In this document: piece after piece, positions 3,059 to 55,154 of the stretch
How the letters are laid out: each line of letters begins with the position of its first letter
Position numbering within the stretch: position 1 is the stretch's first letter
Origin: an uncultured eubacterium 1-6
GTDB lineage: Bacteria; Bacillota; Clostridia; Lachnospirales; Lachnospiraceae
Direction: 5' to 3'
Assembly (NCBI GenBank): GCA_903789595.1
Contig: CAIFEZ010000022.1
Coordinates: 1 to 57,690 of the forward strand
DNA length: 57,690 nt
Translations under genes and position numbers: made by a program
The notes under the pieces: model-generated
What the model was told of the DNA's origin: nothing
What the model saw: only the letters and a program-made list of their open reading frames with translations
Database searches by the model: none

Positions 3059-3062
3059 GATT

Positions 3063-6039: not shown

Positions 6040-7995
6040 ATGGCGAAGTATCCTGATCTTAAAAGCTATTTACAGGCAAATTACATAGAGCTCTTCACAA
6101 GCGAAATACAGAAGTTCGTTGATGGCAATTTTGATGGCGGCGGCTTTCATAGCATCAACGTGTTGTCTTTACTTAAGCACAAAATTGAAAACGTCGAGGT
6201 AAAAGCCCTCACCTGCCATGATGCGCCAGGCCCGATCGTAAAGATGGATGTCGGCCTGTCTGCAGATATTGTGGAGCTGGGGCTCGGCACAAAAGAATAT
6301 GAAGCTGACCGTAAATGCAGGTGGTTCACTGTTTATATTCAGGGAATTCTGAGGGACGGACTTGTGGATGTGGAAGTCCACGATGTTAAGGAATTTCACA
6401 ACGGGAAGTTCGAGAAGGAAAATGCTCTGGATCAGTTCCTGGTCCCTTACATATATACTGCCACCCAGGAAGAAACGGCGGATGATTTTACTGAGTTCTA
6501 TTGCTGTGATGCCATCTACGACGGGTATAAATTGCCTGTAGCACATATATTAGAAGCCTTTGAGATCAAGTATTACTTGGCTGATTTACCGGATAACTGC
6601 TTCGGGCGCATGTATTTTAGAAAAGCCACTGCGACAGTTTATGAAACTCTTCCCTACGTCGGTGAGGTGAAGAAGGAAAATGAAATCATTGAGCCCGGAA
6701 CAATGCTGATAAGCCGTGATAAGTACTACCTCGGCAGCGACGGAACACAGCGTCTTACAATCGCTCATGAAATCATTCACTGGTATCTGCATCAGAAGTA
6801 TTTCAAATTACTGGCCCTGTTGGATGATCAGTCAGATATGATGTCCTGTGAGGTTGAGCCGAGTCGTTATGAAGAAAGCATGACAATGGCACAAAAGGCT
6901 CACTGGTATGCAGAGTGGCAGGCAAACGCGCTGGCGCTTCGTATAGCAATGCCGCAGGATCTTATGGTTAAAGCGATGACTGAGGTGGACGCGGCCGTAA
7001 CCCCTAAGCATTTTAGAGGTGAAATGGCTGAGGACATTATCCGCCGAATTGCAGAGCTATTTGATGTTCCGATTTTTGCAGCCAAGCAGCGTGTTCGTCA
7101 GCTCGATTATGAAGCTGCGGATGGAGCTTTTGTCTATGTTGATGGCAAGTGGCATGAACCGTTCGTATTCGAGTGGGGCTATTTGGATTATCATCAGACC
7201 TACGTAATAGACAGGGCCGGTTATGAAGCTATATACAGTAAGAATCCGGAGTTTGCACAGCTTATTGATTCCGGTAAATATATCTATCTCGGTTACGTAG
7301 TCTGCATCAACGATCCGAAATATGTAGCCGTAGATTTTACTGGTGGCAGAGCGGAACTGAAGCTCTCAGATTACGCAAGGGAACATGCTGACGAGTGCTG
7401 TCTGAAGTTTTCGTTTAAGAGTACTTCCTACTTGAAGGAGATGCAGGACAAGTATGAGTTCTACGGTGAGTCCTATCTCAGCAAGGAAGTAAAGGGCGAA
7501 AACTATGTCGAGCACTATTACGACAAAGACTTCAACCTGGACTGCTTGCAGAACGCTGATGAGATCAATAAAGAAGTCGCACTCATTATTGAAGCACAGG
7601 AAGCTGAAGATAAGGTAATGCTGGAAATGCAACAAAAACGGCTCACTGCGTTTGCGGATACGCTCATATATCATATGGACCGTAAACACATCACGGTCGA
7701 TGATCTTGTTGAGCGCTCCGGTCTAAGTGATACAACGATAAAGAAGTATCGTGCCGGGACATCAAATCCGCCAATCGAGAATGCTATGGCTGTATGTATC
7801 GGACTTAACCTTCCGAAGGCATATAGCGTTCATCTGCTGAAAACCTGCAGCTATACGCTCGGCGATAGTCCGCGTGACAGAGCATACAAATTATGCCTCG
7901 ATCATGATGAAGGTACGCTTCTACAGTGGAACATGATACTGGATGCCTGTCATCAACCACGGATTCCGAACCTGCGAAACCAAAAAACATCATAA
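6040..7995 (+). CDS. large ImmA/IrrE-family metallopeptidase with C-terminal helix-turn-helix
   Basis: 651-residue protein. The metallopeptidase core has the zinc motif HEIIH (H243, E244, H247), followed about 60 residues later by 'HWYAEWQANALALRIAMP', the family's third-ligand helix (ExxA). ImmA/IrrE peptidases typically cleave a phage or mobile-element repressor. Here the C-terminus (about 545-640) carries an XRE-like HTH ('DLVERSGLSDTTIKKY'), so protease and DNA-binding parts may be in one chain. The order is unusual because the HTH is normally N-terminal or on a separate protein. The 240-residue N-terminal region and the 370-530 segment match nothing I recognise. It follows hsdR by 61 bases in the same direction and may be an accessory or regulator of the restriction operon, or the leftmost gene of the mobile region. 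A terminator ends it at 8049-8092. Confidence 0.75.
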   Translation: MAKYPDLKSYLQANYIELFTSEIQKFVDGNFDGGGFHSINVLSLLKHKIENVEVKALTCHDAPGPIVKMDVGLSADIVELGLGTKEYEADRKCRWFTVYIQGILRDGLVDVEVHDVKEFHNGKFEKENALDQFLVPYIYTATQEETADDFTEFYCCDAIYDGYKLPVAHILEAFEIKYYLADLPDNCFGRMYFRKATATVYETLPYVGEVKKENEIIEPGTMLISRDKYYLGSDGTQRLTIAHEIIHWYLHQKYFKLLALLDDQSDMMSCEVEPSRYEESMTMAQKAHWYAEWQANALALRIAMPQDLMVKAMTEVDAAVTPKHFRGEMAEDIIRRIAELFDVPIFAAKQRVRQLDYEAADGAFVYVDGKWHEPFVFEWGYLDYHQTYVIDRAGYEAIYSKNPEFAQLIDSGKYIYLGYVVCINDPKYVAVDFTGGRAELKLSDYAREHADECCLKFSFKSTSYLKEMQDKYEFYGESYLSKEVKGENYVEHYYDKDFNLDCLQNADEINKEVALIIEAQEAEDKVMLEMQQKRLTAFADTLIYHMDRKHITVDDLVERSGLSDTTIKKYRAGTSNPPIENAMAVCIGLNLPKAYSVHLLKTCSYTLGDSPRDRAYKLCLDHDEGTLLQWNMILDACHQPRIPNLRNQKTS

Positions 7996-15907: not shown

Positions 15908-16708
15908 ATGTTTGAAAAAGTAAATCCGGCTCATCCTGATAAGGTGGCCGATCGAATTGCTGGGGCGCTTGTTGACCTGGCCTACAAAAAGGAAAACGAT
16001 CCGAAGATTGCGGTAGAGGTTTTGATAGGACATGGTATCTGCCACATTATTGCAGAGACGTCGGTGCACATATCAAAAGAGGAAGCTGCAGGTATCGTCT
16101 ATAGAATTGCGGGCAATCTCCATACCGATTACTGTGAGGTCCCGCAGGATGTACATCTTGCAAAGAATCAGGATGGAAAGATCCGGTGCGGCGATAATGG
16201 GATCTTCAAGGGTGTGCCAGTAACAGATGAGCAGAAAGCGCTGTGTGAAATCGTAGCATTTCTGTATAACACATATCCTTCGGATGGAAAGTACATTCTG
16301 GATCAGGCGAGACTTATCATCTGCCAGAGCAATGCAGATAGTACACATTTGAAAGAAGTGTATCCGAATGCCGAGGTAAATCCTCTGGGAGACTGGACTG
16401 GTGGTACCGATGTGGATTCCGGCGCTACCAACAGAAAGCTGGGATCGGACATGGCTGACTCAGTGACCGGCGGTGGCCTTCATGGAAAGGATCTCTCCAA
16501 AGCGGACGTCAGTGTAAATATCTACGCCTGGCTTAAGGCCCAAAAGACCGGAGCACTGGTAGAGGTTTGCTGTGCGATTGGTGATGAGTCTGTCGATGGT
16601 ATCCCTTACAAGGAAATCGTCGAGATCGCCAGGGACTATATCCGATCTATAGGAGGATTTGAGAAATTTGCAGAATGGGGGTTGGCGCGATATGAAAACG
16701 ACAACTGA
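15908..16708 (+). CDS. short phage S-adenosylmethionine synthetase-like protein
   Basis: 266 residues. The N-terminus 'VNPAHPDKVADRIAGALVD' corresponds to the 'GHPDK-AD-I-DAVLD' ATP/methionine site of MetK (H9, D11, K12). 'VDSGATNRKLGSDMADS' and 'GGGLHGKDLSKADVSVN' match the C-terminal 'G-TGRK' and 'GGGAFSGKD-SK-DRS' motifs. Cellular MetK is about 380-400 residues, so about a third, mostly central, is missing. It probably makes SAM from ATP and methionine, or is a binding relic. Its end overlaps by 17 bases a SAM-dependent DNA methyltransferase, which would use the product. Confidence 0.75.
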   Translation: MFEKVNPAHPDKVADRIAGALVDLAYKKENDPKIAVEVLIGHGICHIIAETSVHISKEEAAGIVYRIAGNLHTDYCEVPQDVHLAKNQDGKIRCGDNGIFKGVPVTDEQKALCEIVAFLYNTYPSDGKYILDQARLIICQSNADSTHLKEVYPNAEVNPLGDWTGGTDVDSGATNRKLGSDMADSVTGGGLHGKDLSKADVSVNIYAWLKAQKTGALVEVCCAIGDESVDGIPYKEIVEIARDYIRSIGGFEKFAEWGLARYENDN

Positions 16709-17933
16709 AATGCAGCTTGTTCCGATCGAGAAGCTGGTGCCGTATGTAAATAACGCCAGGACCCATTCTCCGGAGCAAATAAATAAGCTCAGGTCCTCCC
16801 TGCGAGAGTTTGGGTTTATCAATCCTGTTATTATCGACCGTGACTTTGGTGTGATCGCCGGCCACGGTCGTATTCTTGCTGCAAAGGAAGAAAACATAAA
16901 AGAGGTGCCTTGCGTTTTTGCAGACCATTTGACCGAGGCGCAAAAGAAAGCTTATATCATCGCAGATAACCGCATGGCTATGGATGCCGGCTGGGACGAG
17001 GAATTGTTGCGCGTTGAGATTGAAGCGCTGCAGGCGGAGGCATTTGACCTTTCACTTACCGGTTTTGATGAGAAAGAGCTATCTGATCTTTTTAAGGATG
17101 ATACCGACGTTGAGGAAGATGACTTTGATGTGGATCAGGAACTATCGGAGCCGGCCATAACAAAAATGGGTGATGTGTGGACTCTTGGAAGGCACCGCCT
17201 GGTCTGTGGAGACTCAACGAAGGAAGAAACCTACGACGTGCTGATGCAGGGACAGAAGGCAAACCTGGTTGTTACCGATCCTCCATACAACGTTAACTAT
17301 GAAGGAACCGCTGGCAAGATCAAAAACGACAATATGGCCGACGAGAAGTTCTATCAGTTCCTTTTCGATGCTTTCCTTAACATGGAGCACTTCATGGCAA
17401 ATGACGCTTCAATTTATGTGTTTCATGCCGATACAGAAGGACTCAATTTCAGGAAGGCATTCTCGGATGCCGGCTTCTATCTTTCCGGTTGCTGTATCTG
17501 GATGAAGCCGAGTTTGGTGCTTGGCCGAAGCCCGTATCAGTGGCAGCACGAACCTTGCCTTTATGGTTGGAAGAAAAAGGGAAAGCATCAGTGGTACTCC
17601 GATAGGAAGCAGACCACGATCTGGTCCTTTGAAAAAACAAAGAAGAATACGGATCACCCGACCATGAAGCCGATTCCGCTTCTGGCATACCCGATCAAGA
17701 ATTCCTCTATGAGTAACACGCTGGTACTTGATCCGTTTGGAGGCAGTGGCTCAACGCTCATCGCCTGTGAACAGATGGAGCGAAGCTGCTATACCATCGA
17801 GCTGGATGAGAAGTACTGCGATGTAATTGTAAAGCGTTATATCGAGCAGGTTGGATCTTCAGACGAGGTGAGCGTCCTTCGTGATGGAAAGACATATTCT
17901 TTCGCGGAGCTTTGCACAGAACCGGATGAATAA
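16692..17933 (+). CDS. ParB-domain DNA methyltransferase
   Basis: 413 residues. The N-terminal ParB/Srx-like domain (about 8-95: 'KLVPYVNNARTHSPEQI', 'VIAGHGRILAAK') is joined to an N6-adenine/N4-cytosine methyltransferase with 'VVTDPPYNV' (about 192-200) and the SAM motif 'LDPFGGSGSTLIACE' (about 345-360). DPPY placed before the SAM motif makes it a beta-type enzyme. It likely protects phage DNA against host restriction. ATG 16692 is used; it overlaps the SAM synthetase gene by 17 bases. The ParB part may couple it to specific sites. Confidence 0.92.
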   Translation: MKTTTEMQLVPIEKLVPYVNNARTHSPEQINKLRSSLREFGFINPVIIDRDFGVIAGHGRILAAKEENIKEVPCVFADHLTEAQKKAYIIADNRMAMDAGWDEELLRVEIEALQAEAFDLSLTGFDEKELSDLFKDDTDVEEDDFDVDQELSEPAITKMGDVWTLGRHRLVCGDSTKEETYDVLMQGQKANLVVTDPPYNVNYEGTAGKIKNDNMADEKFYQFLFDAFLNMEHFMANDASIYVFHADTEGLNFRKAFSDAGFYLSGCCIWMKPSLVLGRSPYQWQHEPCLYGWKKKGKHQWYSDRKQTTIWSFEKTKKNTDHPTMKPIPLLAYPIKNSSMSNTLVLDPFGGSGSTLIACEQMERSCYTIELDEKYCDVIVKRYIEQVGSSDEVSVLRDGKTYSFAELCTEPDE

Positions 17934-43750: not shown

Positions 43751-43769
43751 TATGAAAGGTGGTGAGGCA

Positions 43770-45311
43770 ATGAAGAAGATAACGAAGATAGAGGCGGCCG
43801 GGGTAAAGAGTAATAAAAAACTTCGAGTAGCAGCATACGCCAGAGTATCGACGGATTCTGACGAACAGCTCGTCAGCCTTGATACACAAAAAAATCATTA
43901 CGAGCGGTACATTAAGGCAAGACCTGAATGGGAATATGCTGGCCTCTATTACGACGAAGGGGTGACCGGTACAAAGCTGGCTAAGCGCGATGGCCTTCTG
44001 CGCCTTTTGGCAGACTGTGATAAAGGCATGATTGATTACATCATTGTAAAATCCATCAGCCGCTTTTCCAGAAACACGGTCGACAGCATTGAAATTGTCC
44101 GTAAGCTCTGTCAGGACGGTATCTACATCTACTTCGAAAAAGAGAACATTGATACCGGAAAGATGGAGGGCGAGCTGTTGCTCTCCATTTTGTCGAGTCT
44201 TGCAGAAAGCGAATCAAGGTCCATCTCCGAAAACGAGACCTGGAGCATACAAAAGCGTTTTATGAACGGGTCCTTCAAGATTGGGTATCCTCCCTACGGT
44301 TATAAAAACGAAAACGGTGAGATGGTCGTCGAGCCTGAAAAAGCAGAGATCGTTCGTTGGATTTTTGATGAAATACTCGCTGGCAAATCACCGGCTGAGA
44401 TAGCCAAGGAACTGAATCGAAAAGGTGTGCCATCTAAGCGCGGCGGACGCTGGGAGGGACATGTGATTAACGGGATGATTCGGAATGAGAAATACACCGG
44501 CGATGTGGTTTTCCAGAAGACCTACACGGATGATCGTTTCAACCGTCATGTAAATCGCGGTGAGAAGAACCAGTATTACATGAAAGATCATCATGAGGCG
44601 ATTATCAGCCACGAGGTTTTTGATGCGGCCAACGCCATCATCGAAGCTAATGGTCTGGAAAAAGGAATTCACAAAAACTCAGACAAGTACAAAAACCGAT
44701 ATGCGATGTCTGGCAAGATCATCTGCGGCGAGTGTGGTGGCACCTGGAAGCGCGTTAAGCTCGGTAACCGATTCGGCTTTGCCTGCAATACTCATGTAAA
44801 AGATATGAATGCCTGCAGCATGAAGTCAATAAAAGAAGATCCGGTGAAGGCAGCCTTCGTAACGATGATGAACAAGCTAACCTTTGCACGCGGAAAGGTA
44901 CTGGTTCCTTATTCGGAGATGTTAAAGAGAGGCAATGACGCGGGCACACTTGAGCGCCTGGATGAGATTGATACATTGCTCGAAAAGAACACGGACCGCC
45001 GACAGCAGATCATGCAGTTCTTTACTAAAGGGCTCCTGGACCCAGCGGTTTATGCAGAGGAGAATGATGCTCTGGTAGATGAGGAACGCAGACTCACATC
45101 TGAGAAGGAACAGCTTTCTGGACAGATGAGCGGCAGCCATGAACAGCAAGAAGCATTGACACGGCTTCTAAGATACACGGCTAAGGGCAGAACAATTACA
45201 GAATTTGACGACGAGCTTTTCACAGAGCATGTGGACCACGTCGTGATCTATAAAAGAACGGAGATTGGCTTTGCCATGGAGTGCGGACCGATATTCCGGG
45301 AAAGGATTTGA
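43770..45311 (+). CDS. large serine recombinase 1
   Basis: 513-residue serine integrase. N-terminal resolvase domain with nucleophile S27 in 'AAYARVSTD' and '[19 protein letters not shown]' (about 103-121). The recombinase domain starts at 'PPYGYKNENGEM' (about 179) and runs to 'MIRNEKYTGDVVF'. A zinc ribbon ('IICGECGGTWKRV', with a later C and H) and a coiled-coil C-terminus follow. It catalyses site-specific integration or excision, probably with its partners. ATG 43770 is preceded by AAAGGTGGTGAGG. Confidence 0.92.
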   Translation: MKKITKIEAAGVKSNKKLRVAAYARVSTDSDEQLVSLDTQKNHYERYIKARPEWEYAGLYYDEGVTGTKLAKRDGLLRLLADCDKGMIDYIIVKSISRFSRNTVDSIEIVRKLCQDGIYIYFEKENIDTGKMEGELLLSILSSLAESESRSISENETWSIQKRFMNGSFKIGYPPYGYKNENGEMVVEPEKAEIVRWIFDEILAGKSPAEIAKELNRKGVPSKRGGRWEGHVINGMIRNEKYTGDVVFQKTYTDDRFNRHVNRGEKNQYYMKDHHEAIISHEVFDAANAIIEANGLEKGIHKNSDKYKNRYAMSGKIICGECGGTWKRVKLGNRFGFACNTHVKDMNACSMKSIKEDPVKAAFVTMMNKLTFARGKVLVPYSEMLKRGNDAGTLERLDEIDTLLEKNTDRRQQIMQFFTKGLLDPAVYAEENDALVDEERRLTSEKEQLSGQMSGSHEQQEALTRLLRYTAKGRTITEFDDELFTEHVDHVVIYKRTEIGFAMECGPIFRERI

Positions 45312-45312
45312 T

Positions 45313-45735
45313 ATGCAACACACACCATACGGATACGATATTGTCGGCGGGAAGGCCGTGGTAAATGAAGAAAAGGCAGCCAACCTTCATAAGATATGTG
45401 AAAACTATCTTAGCGGAATGTCGTTCACAGCGGCAGCGGCTGATGTAGGACTTACCATGAGCCACTGCGGGGTCAAGCGGATGATCCAGAACAAGAAGCT
45501 GCTCGGAGACAGTTTTTATCCGGCGATTATTACGGAAGAGACAGCCCGACTGATTGAAGAAGAAAGGGTCCGTAGAGAAAAAGCCCTGGGACGGGATCGA
45601 AGAGGTCGAAAGAAAGTCGAGAAAGCAAAAGGACACACTGCCTTCTCAATATCAAGGGTCCCGATAAAATACGATAACCCAATCAGGCAAGCGGAATATG
45701 CGTACAGCCTGATTCAAAGTGAGGTGAGCGGATAA
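45313..45735 (+). CDS. recombinase-domain-only protein between two serine recombinases
   Basis: 140 residues corresponding to the DNA-binding recombinase domain of large serine recombinases ('[19 protein letters not shown]', '[18 protein letters not shown]', '[18 protein letters not shown]') but with no catalytic resolvase domain. It cannot cut DNA itself. It could be a partner that directs or inhibits the adjacent recombinases. ATG 45313 follows AAAGGA; the stop overlaps recombinase 2 by one base. Related elements carry the same three-gene set, so it is not a random fragment. Confidence 0.75.
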
Positions 45736-47306
45736 TGGCATTAGCACAGAACATTACAGTGATCCCGGCCAGACGCTCCATTGGAACGCAGAAGCCGGCA
45801 GCCAAGGTACAGAAAACACGAGTAGCAGCATACTGCCGCGTGTCCACAGAGTTTGAAGAGCAGGAATCCAGCTACGATGTTCAAGTCGAGCATTACACCA
45901 ATTACATTAACAGCAATCCCGACTGGGAGATGGTTGAGGTTTATGCCGATGACGGCATTTCCGGCACCAACACAAAAAAGCGCGATGAGTTTAACAGGAT
46001 GATCGAGGACTGCAAGGCCGGTAAGATCGATATGATCCTTACAAAGTCAATCAGCCGATTTTCACGAAACACCGTTGACTGCCTGAAATATACTCGTGAG
46101 CTTAAGGATATGAACATTGCCGTCTTCTTCGAGAAGGAAAATATAAACACCCTGGATGCTAAGGGAGAAGTTCTGATGACGATCATGGCGGCACTCGCAC
46201 AGCAGGAATCAGAATCCTTATCTGCGAATGTACGCCTCGGCATCCAGTTCCGAAACCAGCAAGGAAAGGTTCAGATCAACCATAACTGGTTTCTCGGATA
46301 TACAAAAGACGAGGATGGAAAGCTCGTCATTGTTCCAGAGGAAGCTGCCATTGTTCAGCGAATTTACGCGGAGTACATGGATGGCAAGAGCTTTTTACAG
46401 ATCAAGCGAAGCCTGGAAGCAGACGGAATCAAGAATGGTGCCGGCCATGAAAAGTGGCATGAAAGTAACATCAAACAGATTCTTACCAATGAGAAGTACA
46501 TCGGCGACGCACTTCTTCAAAAGACTTATACCGTGAACACCCTCGAAAAGAAGCGTGTCAACAACAACGGCATTGCTCCAAAGTACTATGTGGAAGGCAG
46601 CCATGAGGCGATCATCGACAAGGATGTATTCCTTCGAGTTCAAGCTGAGATTGCCAGACGAGCGAATATCTTAACCGATGGAAAGAAGCGCATATACAGT
46701 TCGCGGTACGCTTTATCAAGCATCGTCTTTTGTGGGCACTGCGGCGACATCTTCCGAAGGGTGAAATGGAACAACCGCGGGTGCCAGTCTACAGTGTGGC
46801 GCTGTGTAAGCAGGGTCCTTAAAAAGAGCAGTGGGATTGATTGCCCGGCCAGGACGATCCACGAGGAGGTTCTTCAGGCAGCAGTTGTTACAGCAGTTAA
46901 CGATGCCTGGTCCAGAAAGGATGCTATCTTGCCGGAGTTGCGCGAGAACATCCGAGCTGTTCTTGAGGAGGATACTGACGCCAAGCTCGCGGAGATTGAT
47001 GCGGCGGTAAAGCAGAAGCAGGCGGAGCTACTCAATGCCGGAAAGGACCAGAATAAGATTGATGAGATCGGCGACGAGATCATGACACTTCGTGAGGAAC
47101 GCCAGTCCATCTTAACGGAAGCTGCCATGCGTAAAGATGTCCAGGATCGCATTGAGGACCTGGCATCATTCCTGGATGAGCAGGTTGAAGCGGTTACTGA
47201 ATATTCGGAGACTCTGGTACGAAGGCTCATTGAAAAAATAACGGTGTGCGACGAGAAGTTGATCGTCGAGTTCAAATCCGGCCTGGAAGTAGAGGTCGAT
47301 GTATAA
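45735..47306 (+). CDS. large serine recombinase 2
   Basis: 523-residue serine integrase. Nucleophile S37 in 'AAYCRVSTE'; '[20 protein letters not shown]' (about 106-125), recombinase domain from '[16 protein letters not shown]' on, zinc ribbon '[14 protein letters not shown]' with later cysteines, and a long coiled coil ('[19 protein letters not shown]'). It resembles recombinase 1 only moderately, so this is an old pair, not a recent duplication. A terminator follows at 47321. Confidence 0.92.
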
Positions 47307-47320
47307 GGGTATCACCTGCC

Positions 47321-47346
47321 AGCGCTCCTTCGGGGGCGCTTTTTTC
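47321..47346 (+). terminator. intrinsic terminator after the recombinases
   Basis: AGCGCTCC (47321-47328) pairs with GGGGCGCT (47333-47340) around TTCG, followed by T6. It closes the prophage transcription on the right. Confidence 0.9.
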
Positions 47347-47386
47347 GTTGTGTTTACAAATTCTTGATGAAATTTGCGGTGTCTTG

Positions 47387-47395
47387 TGATATAAT
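47387..47395 (+). promoter_or_regulatory. extended -10 promoter of the XRE-DUF262 operon
   Basis: TGATATAAT gives a perfect TATAAT (47390-47395) with the extended TG. TTGATG at 47364-47369 is a poorly spaced -35 (20 bases). The first gene starts 50 bases downstream. Confidence 0.65.
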
Positions 47396-47444
47396 AAATT
47401 GCACTGATAGTGAAATTAGATTTAACTCGCATGAGGTAGAAAGC

Positions 47445-47657
47445 ATGTTAAAGAATAATATCGAAATAGATGTAAAAGTAAAATGCGTAGAAGAACAGAC
47501 AACGCAGGCTGAATTAGCTGAAAAGGTGGGCACATCTCCTTCATATGTGAACCGACTTATTAAGAGCCCGGAGAAGATTGTAAATGCCACCTACATAAAG
47601 ATGATGGAGCAGCTTGGGTACGATGTCCAGCTTACTTACGTCAAAAAAGAACAGTAG
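47445..47657 (+). CDS. small XRE-family helix-turn-helix regulator
   Basis: 70 residues with the HTH 'TTQAELAEKVGTSPSYVNRL' (about 19-38), followed by 'KIVNATYIKMMEQLGYDVQL'. As first gene of a six-gene operon it is probably the operon's repressor, acting at the extended -10 promoter at 47387. ATG 47445 follows GAGGT. A longer frame from 47364 would start upstream of the promoter -10 and is rejected. Confidence 0.8.
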   Translation: MLKNNIEIDVKVKCVEEQTTQAELAEKVGTSPSYVNRLIKSPEKIVNATYIKMMEQLGYDVQLTYVKKEQ

Positions 47658-47672
47658 AAAGAAGGGTGCATC

Positions 47673-50270
47673 ATGAACGAGCTGCAGTCATTATCGCAGA
47701 TTTTTCAAAACAAGATTTTCAGAATCCCAGATTATCAGAGAGGGTATGCTTGGCAGGATCTTCAGCTTCGTGACTTTTGGGAAGATGTTGTCAACCTTCA
47801 AACGGATAGGTATCACTACACGGGCCTCCTCTCATTGAAAGTGCTTAGCAGACAGGACAGCCAAAAGCTCGGCAATGAGGACGCCTGGTTATTACAGAGT
47901 GGTTTTAAGGCTTATCACATCGTGGACGGACAGCAGCGTCTTACCACGTTTATTATCATGCTTAATGAAATCATCGAGTTCGTATGTAATCTTCCTGAAA
48001 ATGAGGGTAAATCCGAAGAAGAGATTTATTTGGGCTTTGAGAATATAAAGGATATTAGGGCTAAATACCTGAGTAGAAAACGTCCACCGGATGGATTGAT
48101 TGTTACCTATATGTTCGGATATGAGAATGACAATCCCAGCGCGGAGTATTTAAAGTATCGCATCCTTGGACAGCCTTTTGGTGGGACGATCAAAGAAACG
48201 TATTACACTAAGAACTTGAAATACGCCAAGGAGTTCTTTGCAAGAGAACTCGCGGCTTTTTATGAGATTAAGGGAATTGAAGGCATTGCTGAGCTATATA
48301 AAAAGCTCACATTGCAGCTCATGTTTAATATTCATGAGATCGAAGACGACTATGATGTATTCGTAGCATTTGAAACCATGAATAACCGTGGTAAGCGCTT
48401 AACGAACCTGGAGCTGCTCAAGAACAGACTTATCTATCTTACAACTCTTTATCCGAAAGAGATTTTGGATGAGACAAATGAAGTGGCCCTTCGTGAGCTG
48501 ATTAATAAAGCGTGGAGAGAGGTCTATTATCAGCTTGGCAGGAATGAAAATGATCTTCTGTCAGACGATGAGTTTTTGAGAGCACACTGGATTATGTACT
48601 TCGCTTATTCGAGAAAGAAAGGCGACGATTACATCAAGTTCCTTTTGAGGAAGTTCTCACATAAATCAATATTTGAGAATGTTTTGCAGGCGCTTCCGGA
48701 GGATGAGGATGTTGATGATAGCATTCCCGATCCTGGCGCTGATGACGATGATGATAGTGATGATACACCGGATATCCCTGAACCTATCTCCGGAGAGTTT
48801 TTACAGCCCAAGGAGATCATGGACTATGTTAATAGCCTGAATGAAGCGGCGGAGTTCTGGTATTACACATATTATCCGGATAAATGCACTTCTATAAGTG
48901 ATGAAGAGCAGGTATGGCTTGATAAACTTAACCGTATAGGTCTTGGTTATTTTAGACCGATGATCGCTGTTTCGCTTATCCCGAGGTTGGGATATTCGAA
49001 AGAAGAACGTGTCGCATTGTTTAAGGCAGCGGAGAGATTTATCTTTATCAACTTCCGTATGGCGATGTATCAGTCGAGCTACAAGAGCAGTGATTATTAC
49101 AGAAAAACGCGTGAAGTCTATACCGGAAGTATGACTTTATCGGAAGTAACCGATGATCTGAATACGACTACCGACGCGAACGCAAAGGACGCTGTACGCG
49201 TATTCCTTACCAGAATGAACCGCAGATTTATTTCGGCTGACGGTTTTTACAGTTGGCGCGACCTTCGCTACTTCCTTTATGAGTACGAGTATTCTTTGGC
49301 CACGAAGTATAAGCTGGAGAAGCTGTCATGGGCATTGCTGACAAAGGTTGTAAAGGACCGAATCACGGTAGAGCATATTCTTCCACAGACACCGACAAAG
49401 CTATACTGGCGCAATAACTTCAGACAGTTTACCGATGCGGAGATTAAATCGTTGTCATCATCTCTTGGTAATATGCTTCCTTTATCACAGAGCATCAATT
49501 CAAGCCTGCAGAATGACAGCTTTGATGATAAGAAGGCTCGCGGATATGCTAATGGCTGCCACTGCGAAGTAGAGATATTCAAAGAAGATACGTGGGATGC
49601 AGAGCATATTTACAATCGTGGTATAAAGCTGCTTCATTTCATGGAGACTCGTTGGGGCTTCAAGTTTGAGAGTGTCGATCAGATGGACGAGCTGTTACAT
49701 ATAGCTTTTGTGAATGACGGAAGAGAGATTCCTGACGAGATCACAGAGGAGAATATTACAGCGGTAACGGCTACACCAGAAAAGACGAATGGAAATCGGT
49801 CTGCTCACGTTGCGGCTGTTAATATGAGTTTTGCAAACATAAAGGACGCATCGGGTGAGATCCATATTGATCCGGATAATTGCACTCGTAAGTATGTGCG
49901 CTTTACAACTGATGCAATGAATAAAATACTTCCTTATGCACCGGAGGCCGCAAGTGGCTGGGGAACCAGAAACCATTACTTTTATGAGATTATAAACAGC
50001 GCCGGGAAGTCGGTTTATATGCAGTTGGCGCTTAGTGCGAAAAATATCCCGGATGATTTGAAAGCCATCTGTGAACGGATTAATGAGCACTTTCCGTCAA
50101 AGCAGCAGAAGGAAAACTGGCAGTGGAGATGTCCTTTTATTACCAGTCATGTAAGCATACCGGAAGATATGGCAGATGAGGATATTCTTATGATTTTGAG
50201 CGACCAGTACGCGCAGCTTCAGGAATTTGAAAAGAAGCTGGTTGAAGCGATGAACGAGGAGGAGGAGTAG
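47673..50270 (+). CDS. DUF262-DUF1524 (GmrSD-type) protein with extra C-terminal domain
   Basis: 865 residues. The N-terminal DUF262 domain has 'FRIPDYQRGYAW' (about 16-27) and the nucleotide-binding 'IVDGQQRLTTF' (DGQQR at 85-89). A very acidic linker (about 342-372) follows. The DUF1524 HNH nuclease has 'ITVEHILPQTP' (H568) and 'SLGNMLPLSQSIN'. The last 190 residues ('YVRFTTDAMNKILPYAPEAA', 'SGWGTRNHYFYEIINSAG') are an unassigned domain. GmrSD enzymes cut phage DNA with modified cytosines using NTPs; a related antiphage role is likely. Translated 15 bases behind the XRE regulator. Confidence 0.88.
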   Translation: MNELQSLSQIFQNKIFRIPDYQRGYAWQDLQLRDFWEDVVNLQTDRYHYTGLLSLKVLSRQDSQKLGNEDAWLLQSGFKAYHIVDGQQRLTTFIIMLNEIIEFVCNLPENEGKSEEEIYLGFENIKDIRAKYLSRKRPPDGLIVTYMFGYENDNPSAEYLKYRILGQPFGGTIKETYYTKNLKYAKEFFARELAAFYEIKGIEGIAELYKKLTLQLMFNIHEIEDDYDVFVAFETMNNRGKRLTNLELLKNRLIYLTTLYPKEILDETNEVALRELINKAWREVYYQLGRNENDLLSDDEFLRAHWIMYFAYSRKKGDDYIKFLLRKFSHKSIFENVLQALPEDEDVDDSIPDPGADDDDDSDDTPDIPEPISGEFLQPKEIMDYVNSLNEAAEFWYYTYYPDKCTSISDEEQVWLDKLNRIGLGYFRPMIAVSLIPRLGYSKEERVALFKAAERFIFINFRMAMYQSSYKSSDYYRKTREVYTGSMTLSEVTDDLNTTTDANAKDAVRVFLTRMNRRFISADGFYSWRDLRYFLYEYEYSLATKYKLEKLSWALLTKVVKDRITVEHILPQTPTKLYWRNNFRQFTDAEIKSLSSSLGNMLPLSQSINSSLQNDSFDDKKARGYANGCHCEVEIFKEDTWDAEHIYNRGIKLLHFMETRWGFKFESVDQMDELLHIAFVNDGREIPDEITEENITAVTATPEKTNGNRSAHVAAVNMSFANIKDASGEIHIDPDNCTRKYVRFTTDAMNKILPYAPEAASGWGTRNHYFYEIINSAGKSVYMQLALSAKNIPDDLKAICERINEHFPSKQQKENWQWRCPFITSHVSIPEDMADEDILMILSDQYAQLQEFEKKLVEAMNEEEE

Positions 50271-50272
50271 TG

Positions 50273-50872
50273 ATGAGTTGGGAAGAAATGTATACTTGCT
50301 CGGCCACCTGCCCGTGTGGTAAAGGCAAGATAACGCAGACCAGTTATGGCGATGACTGGAATAGATATAAAGATGGCCCTGTAGTAATTGAATGCGAAGA
50401 GTGTGCTAAGAAGTATAAAGTCGAAGAAGTAACGCATCATGGGTTGCTCGCATCGGACGGTTCATGGAGTACATATTATTTAACGCCAAAGGATTATCCT
50501 GACTATGAGGGACCGAAGGAGTCAGACTTATATCCTGCAGCGCTTAACCAGTATCAGAATTTTCCGGTTTGGTTGATAGAGAACTTTACAGAAGACGAAC
50601 TGAAAGGTGTGCTTGCTCAGCTTGAAAAAACTACTTCAAGCGCTAAATTGACAGGGATTGCAGCCGGCATTCGTGAAGCACATAAAAAAGCGAAGAAGAC
50701 AGTTCGTGTGAGCGAGATCATTAAGACGGTTGAAGCTGCCTTGGAGAAGTATCCGGGGCATGTCGGTAACAAGCTCCAGCGTGAAGAGATCAGGAAGAAA
50801 GAATCTGAGGCCCGTGATGCTTACGTAAAGGAAAAGCGCAAGCATCAAACGGTCATAGATTTGCAGAGATAA
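50273..50872 (+). CDS. zinc-ribbon protein of unknown function
   Basis: 199 residues. The N-terminus has a likely zinc ribbon built from 'CSATCPCG' and 'IECEECAKKY', 'HHGLLASDGSWSTYYL' follows, and a basic helical C-terminus ('EIRKKESEARDAYVKEKRK') could bind nucleic acid. No family recognised. It starts 2 bases after the DUF262 stop and ends 3 bases before the Nudix gene, so it is firmly in the operon. Confidence 0.7.
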   Translation: MSWEEMYTCSATCPCGKGKITQTSYGDDWNRYKDGPVVIECEECAKKYKVEEVTHHGLLASDGSWSTYYLTPKDYPDYEGPKESDLYPAALNQYQNFPVWLIENFTEDELKGVLAQLEKTTSSAKLTGIAAGIREAHKKAKKTVRVSEIIKTVEAALEKYPGHVGNKLQREEIRKKESEARDAYVKEKRKHQTVIDLQR

Positions 50873-50875
50873 TAG

Positions 50876-51277
50876 ATGAAAACAGTTAAAGTTGTCGCAG
50901 CAGTGATATGTGATTCAATTAATGAGAAGAAATCCATATTTGCTACGGCCAGAGGCTATGGTGAATTTAAGGGCCAGTGGGAGTTTCCCGGAGGCAAGAT
51001 TGAGAAAGGCGAAACACCTCAGCAGGCGCTTGTAAGAGAAATACAGGAAGAACTGGATACGAAGATTACGGTGGGCGATCTGATCGGAACCATCGAGTAC
51101 GATTATCCGACGTTTCACCTTTCGATGGACTGTTTCTGGTGTGAGGTGGTCGACGGAGAACTAAAACTCCTGGAGGCAGAGGATGCCAGATGGCTGTCAA
51201 AGGAAAACCTGTATAGTGTTCAGTGGCTTCCGGCAGACATTACGATCATCGAGAAGATCGAGCAAAACATGATATAA
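50876..51277 (+). CDS. Nudix hydrolase, MutT-like
   Basis: 133 residues. A complete Nudix box at 39-61 (G-x5-E-x7-REIQEEL: 'GGKIEKGETPQQALVREIQ' then 'EEL') follows 'GQWEFPGGK', typical of (deoxy)nucleoside triphosphate pyrophosphohydrolases such as MutT. Substrate may be an oxidised or modified nucleotide; in a defence setting a modified or signalling nucleotide is also possible (inference). Confidence 0.88.
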   Translation: MKTVKVVAAVICDSINEKKSIFATARGYGEFKGQWEFPGGKIEKGETPQQALVREIQEELDTKITVGDLIGTIEYDYPTFHLSMDCFWCEVVDGELKLLEAEDARWLSKENLYSVQWLPADITIIEKIEQNMI

Positions 51278-51289
51278 GGAAAGAAAACG

Positions 51290-52153
51290 ATGACATCATT
51301 TGAAATGATTAAATATCATGGGCAGGAATACCCAGCGGATGTTCCACTGCGTATTGAGGAGATCGCAGCCCATTTTGATATTACAAGTGTCGGAGGAAGG
51401 TTGGATAAATCCCTCCACACTGAATATAGCTATGGAAAACGAAAATGGGACTCTGCTCTGGTCCAGAAATACCCGGAGCTTGTCGCAGCTCAAAAAGATA
51501 GCGTTCCTCAGCTTTGGAAAAATGAACGTTGGGCAGAACAGTTTGCTGATTTTATATTTGAACTGAATGGCAGTGGCCCAGCGCCGAAAGTAATAGAGAT
51601 TCATCCGCCATTCAGCGATTACACTGATATTGCTGGTTTTGTAAAGAGCTATTCTACCTTTGAAGCCAAAATCATAGAACGCTTTCCAGATGTTGATATT
51701 CTGGTAGAGAACCGTTGTGGCTCGGTATATCACGGCGGGAAGTTTGTGGTATCAAAGGTCAGGGATGTCGATGCTCTTTGCGAAGCTATCGAGAAGGCTG
51801 GCGTTCAGTTAAAGGTTGCCTATGATGTGCCGCAGATATATACTGCGCATAACGCTAAGAATGAGGATGAGTTTATTCGTCTCCTGGATGAATCAAAACA
51901 GTTCCGGAGTTTTATTGGCGGGGTTCATTTATGGGGGAAAAGCATATCCTCAACGGGCCGGAAGGTATCTCACTGCGGAGACTTGAATTCGTATTTTGGA
52001 GATCAAGCCATAAAAAAACATTTCCTGCAAGCCTTCAAAGATTGCTTTGATGACGGGGTAGCCAGGAAGATGGTCCTGGAGGTTAACAGCGGAAATGCTG
52101 ACCTGCAGTCTATAGTGGCTGACCTTCGAAGCGTAGGAATATCTTTTGTGTAA
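51290..52153 (+). CDS. endonuclease IV/xylose isomerase-like TIM-barrel protein
   Basis: 287 residues. Barrel strands end in likely metal ligands: 'VIEIHPPFSDY' (H105), 'DILVENRCGS' (E140), 'VAYDVPQIYTAHN' (D179, H187), 'GGVHLWGKS' (H213), 'SHCGDLN' (H228, D231) and 'LEVNSGN' (E264). This is the ligand pattern of AP-endonuclease-2/xylose-isomerase-like TIM barrels, including endonuclease IV and UV endonucleases. It may cut damaged or modified DNA, or act on a sugar. Follows the Nudix gene by 12 bases. Confidence 0.72.
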   Translation: MTSFEMIKYHGQEYPADVPLRIEEIAAHFDITSVGGRLDKSLHTEYSYGKRKWDSALVQKYPELVAAQKDSVPQLWKNERWAEQFADFIFELNGSGPAPKVIEIHPPFSDYTDIAGFVKSYSTFEAKIIERFPDVDILVENRCGSVYHGGKFVVSKVRDVDALCEAIEKAGVQLKVAYDVPQIYTAHNAKNEDEFIRLLDESKQFRSFIGGVHLWGKSISSTGRKVSHCGDLNSYFGDQAIKKHFLQAFKDCFDDGVARKMVLEVNSGNADLQSIVADLRSVGISFV

Positions 52154-52163
52154 CGGAGGTTGT

Positions 52164-52364
52164 ATGCGTTCAATTAGTATAGAAGAATTAAGGAGCGAGG
52201 TCGAAGCGTATATCGAAGCAGCAAAATCCGCGAGAGGCGATTCTGCAGTACGGTATTTGAATCGAGCAGAGACGGCTCTTAGAAGTTATGATGGTGTACC
52301 GGAACGATTCAAGAATACTTATTTCAAGTTGATAGAAGATATTAAAAATGACCTGGAACAGTAG
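52164..52364 (+). CDS. small protein, last gene of the DUF262 operon
   Basis: 66 residues, helical: 'ISIEELRSEVEAYIEAAKSA' and 'YLNRAETALRSYDGVPERFK'. No family recognised. CGGAGGT (52154-52160) precedes ATG 52164; the spacing to the TIM-barrel gene is 10 bases. It could be an accessory or immunity-type partner. Confidence 0.65.
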   Translation: MRSISIEELRSEVEAYIEAAKSARGDSAVRYLNRAETALRSYDGVPERFKNTYFKLIEDIKNDLEQ

Positions 52365-52386
52365 ATTTGTTTGGTAGGAGGCACCG

Positions 52387-52476
52387 ATGATGGACTTATT
52401 TAGTAGGAGCCCTGACATTCATAATGGTGTCTCGGGGCATGTGGAGACCGTGGCTCTGCTAACAAGAACAAATTGA
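52387..52476 (+). pseudogene. 29-codon remnant, possibly rhodanese-like
   Basis: Starting at ATG 52387 behind GTAGGAGG, a short frame 'MMDLFSRSPDIHNGV' then 'VETVALLTRTN' ends at TGA 52476. It vaguely resembles the N-terminus of small rhodanese-like proteins ('DINEGV...AVLLDVRT'), which would make it a truncated relic. It may instead be a short leader peptide or nothing. Confidence 0.25.
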
Positions 52477-52512
52477 AAGAGGGCCGAAAAGGCCCGTGTT
52501 TAAGCCATTTCT

Positions 52513-52555
52513 GCGGCATCCGTCTTTCTGAGAAGAGAGGCGGGTGCCGCGTTTT
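52513..52555 (+). terminator. intrinsic terminator in the 52.5-kb gap
   Basis: GCGGCATCCG (52513-52522) pairs with CGGGTGCCGC (52541-52550), 10 bp with one wobble, followed by GTTTT. It should end the DUF262 operon transcript. Confidence 0.6.
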
Positions 52556-52600
52556 CTGTCCGGGACTTCGTTGAAAAGATCGAAGTCTTCCCGGACAGAA
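52554..52600. repeat. long inverted repeat before the tetR stop
   Basis: TTCTGTCCGGG (52554-52564) is perfectly complementary to CCCGGACAGAA (52590-52600); the stem continues inside with ACTTCG/CGAAGT after a 3-base bulge, loop TTGAAAAGAT. It lies between convergent transcription units and may act as a two-way transcription barrier. Confidence 0.6.
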
Positions 52601-52647
52601 TGCGCTTTACCATGAAGGCGGGGATGGTAACAGAAGTGGCGATGTGA

Positions 52648-53244
52648 TTATCTCTCTATCCCGGCATTAATAAATCTGCCAAGGATCTTCTGGTACCGGT
52701 ACCATCGTTCATTTTTCTCCCAGCTAAGGCTCCTGTTTACAGCGAAAGATCCGTTAAGGATGAACTTAAAAAGCATCTCGGCTTCATCTGTGGCGAGGCC
52801 GGTATGCGCCATAAGATCCGGGACAACTTTGTCATGCTCATGAGCGGCAATCCTCTGGATGATATGGTCGCTGACAGATACGTCCATAAACAAGTGATGA
52901 TATTTATCAGAATCAGCGATCCGCTGGCAGGCGGGCAGGACGGTTTCGTTCTCACGGAGCACATCTGACCTGCCGCTGCGGATAATATCGAGTACATCAA
53001 CAACCGTTCCGGAGCCGCTCTCTGAAAAGAGGAGGGCGTCATCGATGACACTGTCCAGTACTTCATCCAGGCTGTCAAAATGCAGGTAAAAGGTAGCACG
53101 GGCAATCTCAGCCTGCCTGCAGACCATAGTGACATTGATCTTGTCATAGGCGGTTTCTTTATTCAGTTCCAGAAGCGCGTCTTTGATGACCATCTGTGTG
53201 TATAACGTTCTTCGGTCAGTCTTTTTCTGATTTGGTGACTTCAT
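52648..53244 (-). CDS. TetR/AcrR-family regulator
   Basis: 198 residues on the minus strand. N-terminal TetR HTH: 'IKDALLELNKETAYDKINV', 'MVCRQAEIARATFYLHFDSL' (about 40-60). The C-terminal effector domain ('ATDEAEMLFKFILNGSF') resembles the TetR_C type of Clostridia stress regulators. ATG 53244 is preferred over GTG 53253 by GGTG spacing. It is transcribed away from the sirtuin genes; a 12-bp dyad (53384-53410) overlapping its own -35 is the probable operator, suggesting it controls itself and the sirtuin operon. Confidence 0.88.
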   Translation of the reverse strand: MKSPNQKKTDRRTLYTQMVIKDALLELNKETAYDKINVTMVCRQAEIARATFYLHFDSLDEVLDSVIDDALLFSESGSGTVVDVLDIIRSGRSDVLRENETVLPACQRIADSDKYHHLFMDVSVSDHIIQRIAAHEHDKVVPDLMAHTGLATDEAEMLFKFILNGSFAVNRSLSWEKNERWYRYQKILGRFINAGIER

Positions 53245-53297
53245 TTTATTCACCGTCTTTCTCTGATATCTGCAATCGAATATTCCCGATCACGAGA

Positions 53298-53333
53298 AAC
53301 TCCTGTACAGTTTTGCAATTCTGTACGGGAGTT
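53298..53333. repeat. 13-bp inverted repeat in the tetR leader
   Basis: AACTCCTGTACAG (53298-53310) pairs over 13 bp (one wobble) with CTGTACGGGAGTT (53321-53333), loop TTTTGCAATT. It lies in the untranslated leader of tetR and could be a second operator or an RNA hairpin controlling tetR. Confidence 0.55.
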
Positions 53334-53410: not shown

Positions 53411-53461
53411 GTCGCTAACCTTGTATCGCAGAATCAAAAATGAGAGAGGAGAATGAAAATC

Positions 53462-54445
53462 ATGACCTTTTATGAGCAGATTGTAAATGAAGTACAGATG
53501 AGCAATTATTCCAGATATTACAACGTATATGCATCCGGCAGAACTGTGGTTCCGCTGACAAAGAAAGAGCCGCTCCCTTATGAAGAGCAGATTCAGTATT
53601 TTGTTCAGAAAGTGAAGGACGCAGATTGTGTGATCGTCGGAGGGGCATCCGGCCTTTCCGCGGCAGGCGGCGGGGATTTCTATTATGAAGACAACGCCTC
53701 CTACCGGAAATATTTCGGAAAGTATGCGGAGAAATACGGATTCAAAGGTGCTTTTTCTGGTGCGTTTGCCCACTGGGATTCCCGTGAGGAGTTCTGGGGA
53801 TATATGGCAACATTCCTGCATACCACCCAGCATGCGGAGGTTCGGAAGCCGTACCTGGATTTGGATGCGGTCCTCGCGGATAAAGAATTCTTTGTACTGA
53901 CCACAAATCAGGACACCCAGTTCGTAAAGCTGTATCCGGAGTCTAAAGTCGCCCAGATTCAGGGCGGCCATCGCTTCTTCCAGTGCTCCAGGTGCTGCAC
54001 GGATGAGGTATGGGATGCCGTGAAACCGGTGCAGGAGATGATCGATGCCATGGGTGAGGGCACGGCAGTGCCGAAGGAACTGATCCCGCGCTGTCCGCAC
54101 TGCGGCGCTGAGGCGTTTCCGTGGGTCCGGGGTTATGGAAATTTCCTGACCGGTAAGAAATACGAAGAGGAATATCAGAAGATATCAGATTACATTCTCG
54201 CGCATAAGGACGAGAAGATTCTTTTCCTGGAACTCGGCGTCGGAAGACTCACACCGATGTTCATCCAGGAGCCGTTCTGGGAACTGGTGAACAGTTTGCC
54301 GCAGACGACGTATATTTCTGTGAACAAGGATTATGCGTTCCTGCCGGAGGCAATTGAAGACAGGGGACTGGCTATCCAGGGCGATATTGGGAAAGTGCTG
54401 GAGGATGTAAGAAGTGAAATGGAGAAGAAAGTCACAGTTGTATGA
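53462..54445 (+). CDS. class M-like sirtuin (SirTM-type), zinc-containing
   Basis: 327 residues. The Rossmann NAD site begins 'DCVIVGGASGLSAAGGGDFY' (about 55-74). 'FSGAFAHWDSREEFWGYMAT' (about 98-117) is the insertion seen in macrodomain-linked sirtuins. 'FFVLTTNQDTQF' gives the NAD-binding N149 and D151. 'AQIQGGHRFFQCSRCC' has Gln where classical sirtuins have the catalytic His, as in class M sirtuins, followed by zinc cysteines (about 175, 178; 'CPHCG' about 211, 214). It probably ADP-ribosylates rather than deacetylates; no macrodomain gene lies nearby. ATG 53462 suits AGGAG spacing better than ATG 53453. Confidence 0.75.
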   Translation: MTFYEQIVNEVQMSNYSRYYNVYASGRTVVPLTKKEPLPYEEQIQYFVQKVKDADCVIVGGASGLSAAGGGDFYYEDNASYRKYFGKYAEKYGFKGAFSGAFAHWDSREEFWGYMATFLHTTQHAEVRKPYLDLDAVLADKEFFVLTTNQDTQFVKLYPESKVAQIQGGHRFFQCSRCCTDEVWDAVKPVQEMIDAMGEGTAVPKELIPRCPHCGAEAFPWVRGYGNFLTGKKYEEEYQKISDYILAHKDEKILFLELGVGRLTPMFIQEPFWELVNSLPQTTYISVNKDYAFLPEAIEDRGLAIQGDIGKVLEDVRSEMEKKVTVV

Positions 54446-54461
54446 TCATAGAGGGTGAAAA

Positions 54462-55154
54462 ATGACGGAATATAAAGTAAATGATTATAAAGAGGCAAAA
54501 GACTGGCTGAAAAACACGGACGCCATTCTGATTACGGCGAGCAACGGGCTTTCCATCGCGGAGGGGTATCATATTTTTGCGGATAATGGGTCATTCAGAA
54601 GGTGCTTTGGGAAGTTCCGTCAGAAGTACGGCGCAGACAGCCTGATCCGCGGTGTGTTCACGCCGATGACGGCGGCCGATCATGAGGAATATATGCAGAC
54701 GGTTCATCAGTATTTAATTGACGACTACCATGGCAGTGAGGTAATGAAAAACCTGCTTTCAATTGTCAGGAATAAACCATATTTTATCGTGACCAGTAAC
54801 GGCGACGCACATTTTCAGATGAATGGTTTTGACCGGGACAGAATCTTCGAAGTGGAAGGTAACTTCGAAGGCCTTACGGAGGGGTCTGAGGAGTGGAACG
54901 GCCAGCGGCAGAGATTTTACGCATTCCTTCAGGAGTATTCCGGGCAGAATGCTCTGCTCTTTGAGCTTGGCATTGGGAGCCGGAACCAGCTGATCAAAGC
55001 CCCGACGATGGGAATGGCAGCGGAATATCCTTCCTGGAAGTACATTACGATGAATATGCCGGGAGAAATCAACATTCCGGATGCGCTGGCAGACAGGACA
55101 GTAGCCCTGACAGGTGATATCGGAGAAAACTTAAGGAATCTTTTGAATGAATGA
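54462..55154 (+). CDS. second sirtuin-like protein without zinc cysteines
   Basis: 230 residues, same fold: 'AILITASNGLSIAEGYHIFA' (about 21-40), 'IRGVFTPMTAADHEEYMQTV' (about 62-81), 'YFIVTSNGDAHFQMNGFDRD' (N113, D115), 'LLFELGIGSRNQLIKAP'. The catalytic position is Glu (E132 in 'VEGNFE'), and the zinc-binding cysteines and their domain are absent, shortening the protein by about 100 residues. It may be a regulatory partner of the upstream sirtuin, or an enzyme with altered chemistry. It follows after 16 bases with AGAGGGTG before the start. Confidence 0.7.
   Translation: MTEYKVNDYKEAKDWLKNTDAILITASNGLSIAEGYHIFADNGSFRRCFGKFRQKYGADSLIRGVFTPMTAADHEEYMQTVHQYLIDDYHGSEVMKNLLSIVRNKPYFIVTSNGDAHFQMNGFDRDRIFEVEGNFEGLTEGSEEWNGQRQRFYAFLQEYSGQNALLFELGIGSRNQLIKAPTMGMAAEYPSWKYITMNMPGEINIPDALADRTVALTGDIGENLRNLLNE

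Follow-up and report, generated by a model that had tools for sequence, protein, structure and literature searches.

The six-gene operon at positions 47445-52364 (plus strand) of the window, i.e., of the whole stretch of 57,690 nucleotides that was analysed, is best explained as a prophage-borne Type IV restriction cassette directed against 5-modified cytosine, in which a GmrSD enzyme would act on DNA, a Nudix hydrolase would act on nucleotides, and a metalloenzyme would be an accessory. The probability of this reading was estimated to be about 0.55. New here is the unusual accessory set, which is added to the known GmrSD Type IV restriction. All six ORFs are present in the window, and the intergenic gaps are 15, 2, 3, 12 and 10 bases in operon order. 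The operon and the adjacent features are the following:

43752-45311, 45265-45735 and 45735-47306, plus strand: three recombinase-family ORFs at the prophage end (ORF reading)
47321-47340, plus strand: terminator-like hairpin between the recombinases and the operon (consensus scan)
47367-47395, plus strand: promoter-like site with a TG-extended -10 (consensus scan, 10 of 12, weak by itself)
47445-47657, plus strand: 70-aa HTH (XRE-like) protein, probable regulator (HTH_3 4.6e-6)
47673-50270, plus strand: 865-aa single-chain GmrSD-type protein with DUF262 and DUF1524 (Pfam domains and motifs)
49809-50243, plus strand: residues 713-857 of the GmrSD-type protein, with its swapped C-terminal domain (PDC-S26 match, alignment with locus L015)
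50273-50872, plus strand: 199-aa zinc-ribbon-like protein with an N-terminal cysteine cluster (five Cys; alternative GTG start at 50270)
50876-51277, plus strand: 133-aa Nudix hydrolase of the PDC-S07 family, candidate 5-substituted-dCTP pyrophosphohydrolase (family models, kinship to 3gwy)
51290-52153, plus strand: 287-aa protein with a xylose-isomerase/endonuclease IV-like TIM barrel, without a family model (predicted structure)
52164-52364, plus strand: 66-aa protein, no relatives found in family-library and plasmid searches
52512-52551, plus strand: terminator-like hairpin of 18 pairs 3' of the operon (consensus scan)

The ORFs thus confirmed the claim of the first-pass annotation that six closely spaced genes lie beside prophage recombinases, the third of which ends at 47306. 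The short gaps, the promoter-like site and the hairpins on either side make the six genes look like one unit. A single extended -10 promoter had been proposed as well. The TG-extended site was indeed found (ATGAAA-17-TATAAT, with TG ahead of the second hexamer), but a second site, at 51290, reached the same top score of 10 of 12, and 16 sites were counted in total versus 9.7 +/- 2.9 in shuffles, so that the promoter-like site alone is weak evidence. The region ahead of the operon reads as prophage, with portal-, capsid-, tail-, lysis- and replication-type ORFs that were named by eye. Attachment repeats, searched as exact words, did not exceed 11 bases in the stretches compared, no tRNA was detected in the window, and an Rfam search of positions 52300-53300 gave no match.

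Judged by its domains and motifs, the core of the operon encodes a Type IV restriction enzyme of the single-chain GmrSD type, of predicted activity. Both GmrSD_N (DUF262; 1.4e-28, 100.8 bits) and GmrSD_C (DUF1524; 8.4e-18, 65 bits) scored above the Pfam cut-offs and the motifs are present, and, thus, the earlier assignment of DUF262/DUF1524 to the GmrSD restriction fold holds. The motifs QR, DGQQR and FxxxN have been described for GmrS, and (E/D)H(I/L/V)xPQ, L(G/A)NLxLLxxxN and NxxFxxKK for GmrD (PMC4619093). The 865-aa protein contains all three listed GmrS motifs, with DGQQR at residue 85. For GmrD, the comparison covered three motifs and left out a weak fourth one: EHILPQ (residue 567) and NDSFDDKK (residue 614) are present, and the second motif is found as LGNMLPLSQSIN, with conservative changes (LGN at residue 598). 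The catalytic motifs of the enzyme are therefore intact at the sequence level. The best PADLOC model in this comparison, for which single-protein models were used, was HEC-06 (5.7e-47); the match consisted of two stretches, the best one covering residues 5-316, and the model has a length of 569 versus 865 aa. HEC-06 resembles GmrSD and has been reported to work on its own (PMC11411939). The window protein resembles Eco94GmrSD, BrxU/HEC-05 and HEC-06 in the presence of DUF262 and DUF1524, in the DGQQR and EHxxPQ-type motifs, and in the setting on mobile elements and in defence islands. In contrast to these single-chain GmrSD systems, it has 865 aa, it ends in a different C-terminal domain, and it is co-transcribed with the genes for an HTH protein, a Nudix hydrolase, a TIM-barrel protein and two small or orphan proteins.

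The C-terminal domain is of the type of the PADLOC candidate PDC-S26, and residues 717-862 match the end of that model with 6.3e-16. Among 10 phage records that match the GmrSD-type protein, one (L015) covers the C-terminal part, with 27.5% over residues 713-857, and the L015 protein is a PDC-S26 protein with a PD-(D/E)XK domain. The nearest relatives of the window protein have DUF4268 instead, which was shown for L010. The difference may mean that unrelated defence nucleases have exchanged a domain for sensing or for binding a partner. Homology of the window domain with DUF4268 was unsupported in a comparison, and a single-sequence structure prediction of the domain had a pLDDT of 45 and was discarded.

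The closest counterparts of the operon start were found in three IMG/VR viral contigs (L010-L012), in which three recombinase ORFs are followed by an HTH gene and then by a DUF262 gene, as in the window. The HTH relative has an identity of 77-79% and lies at the same place, and the DUF262 gene has an identity of 70% over residues 1-699. The recurrence of this pair 3' of matching recombinases supports the reading as a restriction cassette. More distant GmrSD relatives include one with 56% directly 3' of a site-specific recombinase in an S. suis prophage, and one with 42% 3' of the BREX gene pglX on an Acinetobacter plasmid. At 1e-60, matches were present in 6 of 392 genomes of the order, the genome of the window included.

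Conservation of the remaining genes was analysed by tblastn of the window proteins at twelve other DUF262 loci (L010-L014 without L015, L016, L025-L028, L030 and L045, with duplicate short loci uncounted; the downstream view is only 1-2 kb in L010-L012 and L016, and only a fragment is present at L030, where the contig ends). The HTH gene was found at three of the twelve loci and a decayed TIM-barrel gene directly downstream of DUF262 at one. A Nudix or cysteine-rich relative was found at none of them, and neither was the full six-gene set, which counts against the main reading. The gene set is thus not conserved together elsewhere, and the claim that the six genes are one conserved system failed in this check of neighbourhoods, while sub-pairs do recur. 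By eye, an ADP-ribosylglycohydrolase-like protein (L025:10140-11765) and a SEFIR/TIR-like protein (L027:10447-11898) were seen adjoining two of the DUF262 genes.

These results leave considerable room for one alternative, the main rival, which is less probable than the main reading. It states that the HTH protein and GmrSD are one system, and that the genes for the cysteine-rich, Nudix, TIM-barrel and small proteins are separate cargo of a hot spot beside the recombinases, which is merely co-transcribed. It agrees with the other cargo that follows the HTH and GmrSD pair in L010-L012, and with the occurrence of GmrSD relatives without a Nudix gene or an intact TIM-barrel gene at all twelve loci. 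However, the 2-15-base gaps within one unit argue against it, and so does locus L045, where the decayed TIM-barrel gene lies directly 3' of DUF262. Further evidence on both sides came from the distribution of the Nudix and the TIM-barrel genes.

The Nudix protein matched Pfam NUDIX above the cut-off (6.5e-19) and belongs to the PADLOC family PDC-S07 (3.8e-49). Its closest solved relative is 3gwy with 39.7% identity. This enzyme hydrolyses 5-Me-dCTP and 5-hydroxymethyl-dCTP with a kcat/Km of about 4-5 x 10^6 M-1 s-1 (PMC5158307). The window protein shares the Nudix box with RE..EE with 3gwy and with E. coli NudG, to which it has an identity of 31.8%. In MutT, 8-oxoguanine is read by Asn119. This column is occupied by Asp in the window protein and in 30 of 30 other family members, and also in E. 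coli NudG, 3gwy and 5x1x. MutT and 7syc have Asn at column 119 and form their own separate branch in the tree, in which the branch of 3gwy has a low support of 0.525. The NCBIfam MutT equivalog cut-off was just passed (99.5 versus 97.9 bits), which counts against the main reading. The sequence features indicate that the protein is probably not a plain MutT, and that it is a candidate 5-substituted-dCTP hydrolase.

The Nudix family is common and was found in 71 of 191 genomes of the order, as would be expected for separate cargo. Its neighbourhood was analysed at 29 other loci, i.e., the best 30 of 74 listed matches minus the window, with flanks of about 1.5 kb per side or less. In the window the Nudix enzyme is encoded together with a GmrSD enzyme, whereas at eight of these loci (a raw count) the Nudix gene adjoins the gene for a DUF3427/PLD/helicase enzyme of the SauUSI architecture. 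A SauUSI-type neighbour was absent within about 1.5 kb at the other 21 of the 29 loci, which weakens the main reading. Of 81 listed neighbouring ORFs 44 were scanned, all of them stop-to-stop frames of which a few may be spurious, and 8 of the 44 matched PADLOC mREase_IV and 7 matched DUF3427. SauUSI cuts m5C and hm5C DNA and spares m4C DNA (PMC3874153). In S. suis, co-localisation of PDC-S07 and RM type IV was reported for 23 of 23 occurrences, the report being one of co-localisation only (PMC12813430). Nudix genes of this family thus accompany Type IV enzymes of two non-homologous kinds, and this linkage argues against independent cargo. The link would be a common chemistry, because SauUSI-type enzymes and 3gwy-type Nudix enzymes target the same 5-substituted cytosine, the former in DNA and the latter in the dNTP. 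None of the titles and abstract openings that were scanned in the literature gave a mechanistic link between Type IV restriction and a Nudix enzyme.

The two closest of the Nudix relatives compared have identities of 88% (L101) and 78% (L086). Genes for proteins of about 253 aa, which belong to one family, lie directly 5' of them (L101:731-1495 and L086:429-1187). A role as a modified-base reader had been suspected by eye, and Pfam gave only a UvrD-tudor match, in L101. Further neighbours of PDC-S07 Nudix genes encode a C5-cytosine methylase (L093:1903-3327), an AlkZ-related protein (L109:1912-2676) and an ADP-ribosylglycohydrolase (L102:1908-2720).

The TIM-barrel gene is rare. With the window's genome counted, it was found in 2 of 61 relatives, the second match being distant, and in 1 of 392 genomes of the order. 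In the phylum it was found in 7 of 378 genomes, namely in the window, once at full length, three times as decayed pieces, and twice as distant matches. Three loci are located in genome contigs, three in viral contigs and one in a plasmid record, and none was found in phage records. The three decayed copies show that the gene is dispensable, and they, too, count against the main reading.

Twelve TIM-barrel loci were compared, including the window and the three decayed copies, and excluding the distant proteins of about 555 aa of L041-L043. Restriction-type neighbours were present at seven of the twelve, in favour of the main reading. In the window the neighbour is GmrSD. In L003 the TIM-barrel gene is frameshifted and lies together with a Nudix gene and the gene for a SauUSI-type enzyme; this combination with another Type IV enzyme supports the main reading and argues against unconnected cargo. 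In L004, a Thermococcus plasmid, the neighbours encode DUF2357-PDDEXK_7 and an AAA-like protein. L007 contains two C5-methylase-like ORFs, one of which was confirmed, and McrBC-like ORFs seen by eye, and L040 contains DUF499, DUF3780, a DUF1156 methylase and a PLD-helicase. The last two copies are decayed: the one in L045 lies directly 3' of a DUF262 gene of 48%, and the one in L046 lies beside McrBC and an NgoFVII-type PLD protein. No restriction-type neighbours were in view at five of the twelve loci, and this result counts against the main reading. They are L001, L002 (the contig ends about 180 bases on), the viral contigs L008 and L009 (in L009 the gene lies beside an integrase-like ORF, by eye), and L044, a decayed copy on a contig of 3,750 bases. 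The gene stands alone in the phage contigs L008 and L009 and is far from restriction genes in L001, as the cargo explanation would predict.

The relative in L004 (L004:8001-8927, 39-42%) follows the DUF2357-PDDEXK_7 gene on the Thermococcus barophilus plasmid pTBMP1, and, thus, the family reaches archaea. The proteins of about 555 aa (L041:6264-7919, L042:6132-7799 and L043:5262-6920) contain a distant TIM-barrel relative as their C-terminal part, and by eye several metal-type residues are changed in that of L041. A gene for a protein of about 440 aa lies 3' of the first gene in L041 and L042, and L042 also adjoins a serine recombinase. The two genes are possibly a separate two-gene system.

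Across four libraries, family matches of the TIM-barrel protein were at best 0.095, none of seven family members was matched in Pfam and PADLOC, and the Pfam and NCBIfam scans revealed no TIGR00587 or PF01261 match. An AlphaFold model was built from six sequences and reached a pLDDT of 89.5. In Foldseek it retrieved xylose-isomerase-like barrels with modest scores and an rmsd of 5.7 or more (50 matches listed). Among these 50 matches, the highest TM-scores belong to endonuclease IV (4hno 0.57/0.57, 5zhz 0.52/0.58), and the lowest E-values belong to sugar isomerases, which counts against the main reading. The modelled protein therefore resembles xylose-isomerase/endonuclease IV-type barrels. 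Seven residues (H43, H105, E140, D179, H213, H228, E264) are invariant in all eight intact members and in the model sit at, or at most one residue away from, the C-terminal ends of consecutive strands. In endonuclease IV, zinc is bound by H69, H109, E145, D179, H182, H216, D229, H231 and E261. The order of the invariant His, Glu and Asp residues presumably mirrors that of these ligands, with Gln182 at the place that we take to be that of the zinc-binding H182; this register was set by eye and with a non-significant alignment. The predicted barrel is thus similar to endonuclease IV and xylose-isomerase-like barrels (TM 0.57 to 4hno), but the family is without a family-model match and has invariant motifs of its own, i.e., SLHTEYSY, IHPPF, HxWGK and EVNS.

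Membership in the endonuclease IV family was non-significant in a profile comparison, which weakens the main reading, and so was kinship to UvdE, one DUF692 protein and sugar epimerases. This comparison was of low power, because four control pairs of reference families scored probabilities of only 0.8, 5, 13 and 35%. An hmmsearch of the TIM-barrel profile against endonuclease IV, UvdE, DUF692 and epimerase sets gave nothing significant, while the three cousins of about 555 aa reached 57-83 bits. Searches by sequence revealed no solved structure for the protein or its profile (best 0.39 and 0.21). The endonuclease IV-like TIM barrel of the first-pass annotation therefore stands as a fold class, by model and Foldseek, while the sequence tests were non-significant and a function as endonuclease is unproven.

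That the Nudix and TIM-barrel proteins are housekeeping-type enzymes of use to the phage itself and not to defence, serving in 8-oxo-dGTP sanitation and as a sugar isomerase or in repair, is improbable, because the passed MutT cut-off, the sugar isomerases at the top of the Foldseek list by E-value, and the occurrence of both genes also outside restriction islands are opposed by the Asp in 31 of 31 family members with MutT and 7syc branching apart, by the endonuclease IV gene that the host genome already has, and by the recurring Type IV neighbours.

The three other proteins contribute less. The 70-aa protein matched HTH_3 above the Pfam cut-off and may restrain the operon. For the 199-aa protein, called a zinc-ribbon protein before, the label is based on five N-terminal cysteines (9, 13, 15, 41 and 44) and on a sub-threshold Pfam match (0.068). 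Relatives were found for the first ~50 residues only (L029, L031, L032 and L033), with no Nudix or DUF262 relatives in view near them, and no relatives were found in viral contigs, phages or the PDB. The 66-aa protein had no family match better than 0.089 in four libraries and none in plasmids. As a guess, the cysteine-rich and the 66-aa proteins could be adaptors or regulators.

The operon is a probable defence operon, carried by a prophage and based on the GmrSD restriction fold, as had been suggested. A system that senses or makes lesions in modified phage DNA had also been suggested; the partners fit the theme of modified DNA, but the Nudix enzyme points to 5-substituted dCTP and not to lesions. 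According to the proposed mechanism, the DUF262/NTPase part would sense modified incoming DNA, with the swapped C-terminal domain probably tuning this step, and the DUF1524 nuclease, with the activity predicted from its family, would cut it. The Nudix enzyme, by its kinship to the measured enzyme, would hydrolyse 5-methyl-, 5-hydroxymethyl- or similar dCTP. Preferably, it would guard the pool, i.e., keep modified cytosine from destroyed phage DNA out of the host DNA, so that the latter is not targeted by the cell's own GmrSD enzyme. Alternatively, it could deprive the phage of its modified precursor. This version is strained, because destruction of modified dCTP would lower the modification of the phage DNA and help the phage to escape GmrSD. 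The TIM-barrel protein would be a metal-dependent accessory, most likely an endonuclease IV-type DNA-end or lesion nuclease that finishes damaged phage DNA; the fold and the conserved site are consistent with this chemistry. The DNA-glycosylase defence Brig1 was reported to work without the AP endonucleases of E. coli (PMC11078745), which weakens a nuclease role.

A more general model is tentative and rather unlikely at present. It proposes a two-level immunity, in which Type IV enzymes (GmrSD, SauUSI-type) destroy the DNA and the Nudix enzyme destroys 5-modified dCTP to prevent self-cleavage, while the TIM-barrel metalloenzyme is a third component that several restriction enzymes without mutual kinship have in common, on elements ranging from archaeal plasmids to prophages. 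A cell that bears a Type IV enzyme would be expected to poison itself when it recycles modified nucleotides of destroyed phage DNA; the operon and the SauUSI linkage at 8 of 29 loci make this question testable. If the model is true, the rule would be that a cutter of modified DNA is paired with an enzyme that destroys the matching modified building blocks. PADLOC gives no description of PDC-S07, for which the results also offer a role, and they flag a TIM-barrel family, without a Pfam or PADLOC model, that recurs beside restriction genes.

Additional ORFs of the window were observed at some distance from the operon. Beyond it, two adjacent SIR2-like ORFs of 330 and 230 aa are located at 53453-55154; the first matched SIR2 below the threshold (0.14), and for the other one the family search gave no match. 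At the other end of the window, the ORFs at 387-5978 read by eye as a type I restriction-modification system (HsdM-, HsdS- and HsdR-like) and are followed by a 651-aa protein (6040-7995) with metalloprotease-like and HTH parts, also by eye. Within the prophage, a 266-aa S-adenosylmethionine-synthetase-like ORF adjoins a ParB-like/DNA methyltransferase ORF with a DPPY motif (15908-17933, by eye). If this pair represents a phage-borne SAM supply, it would be of interest.
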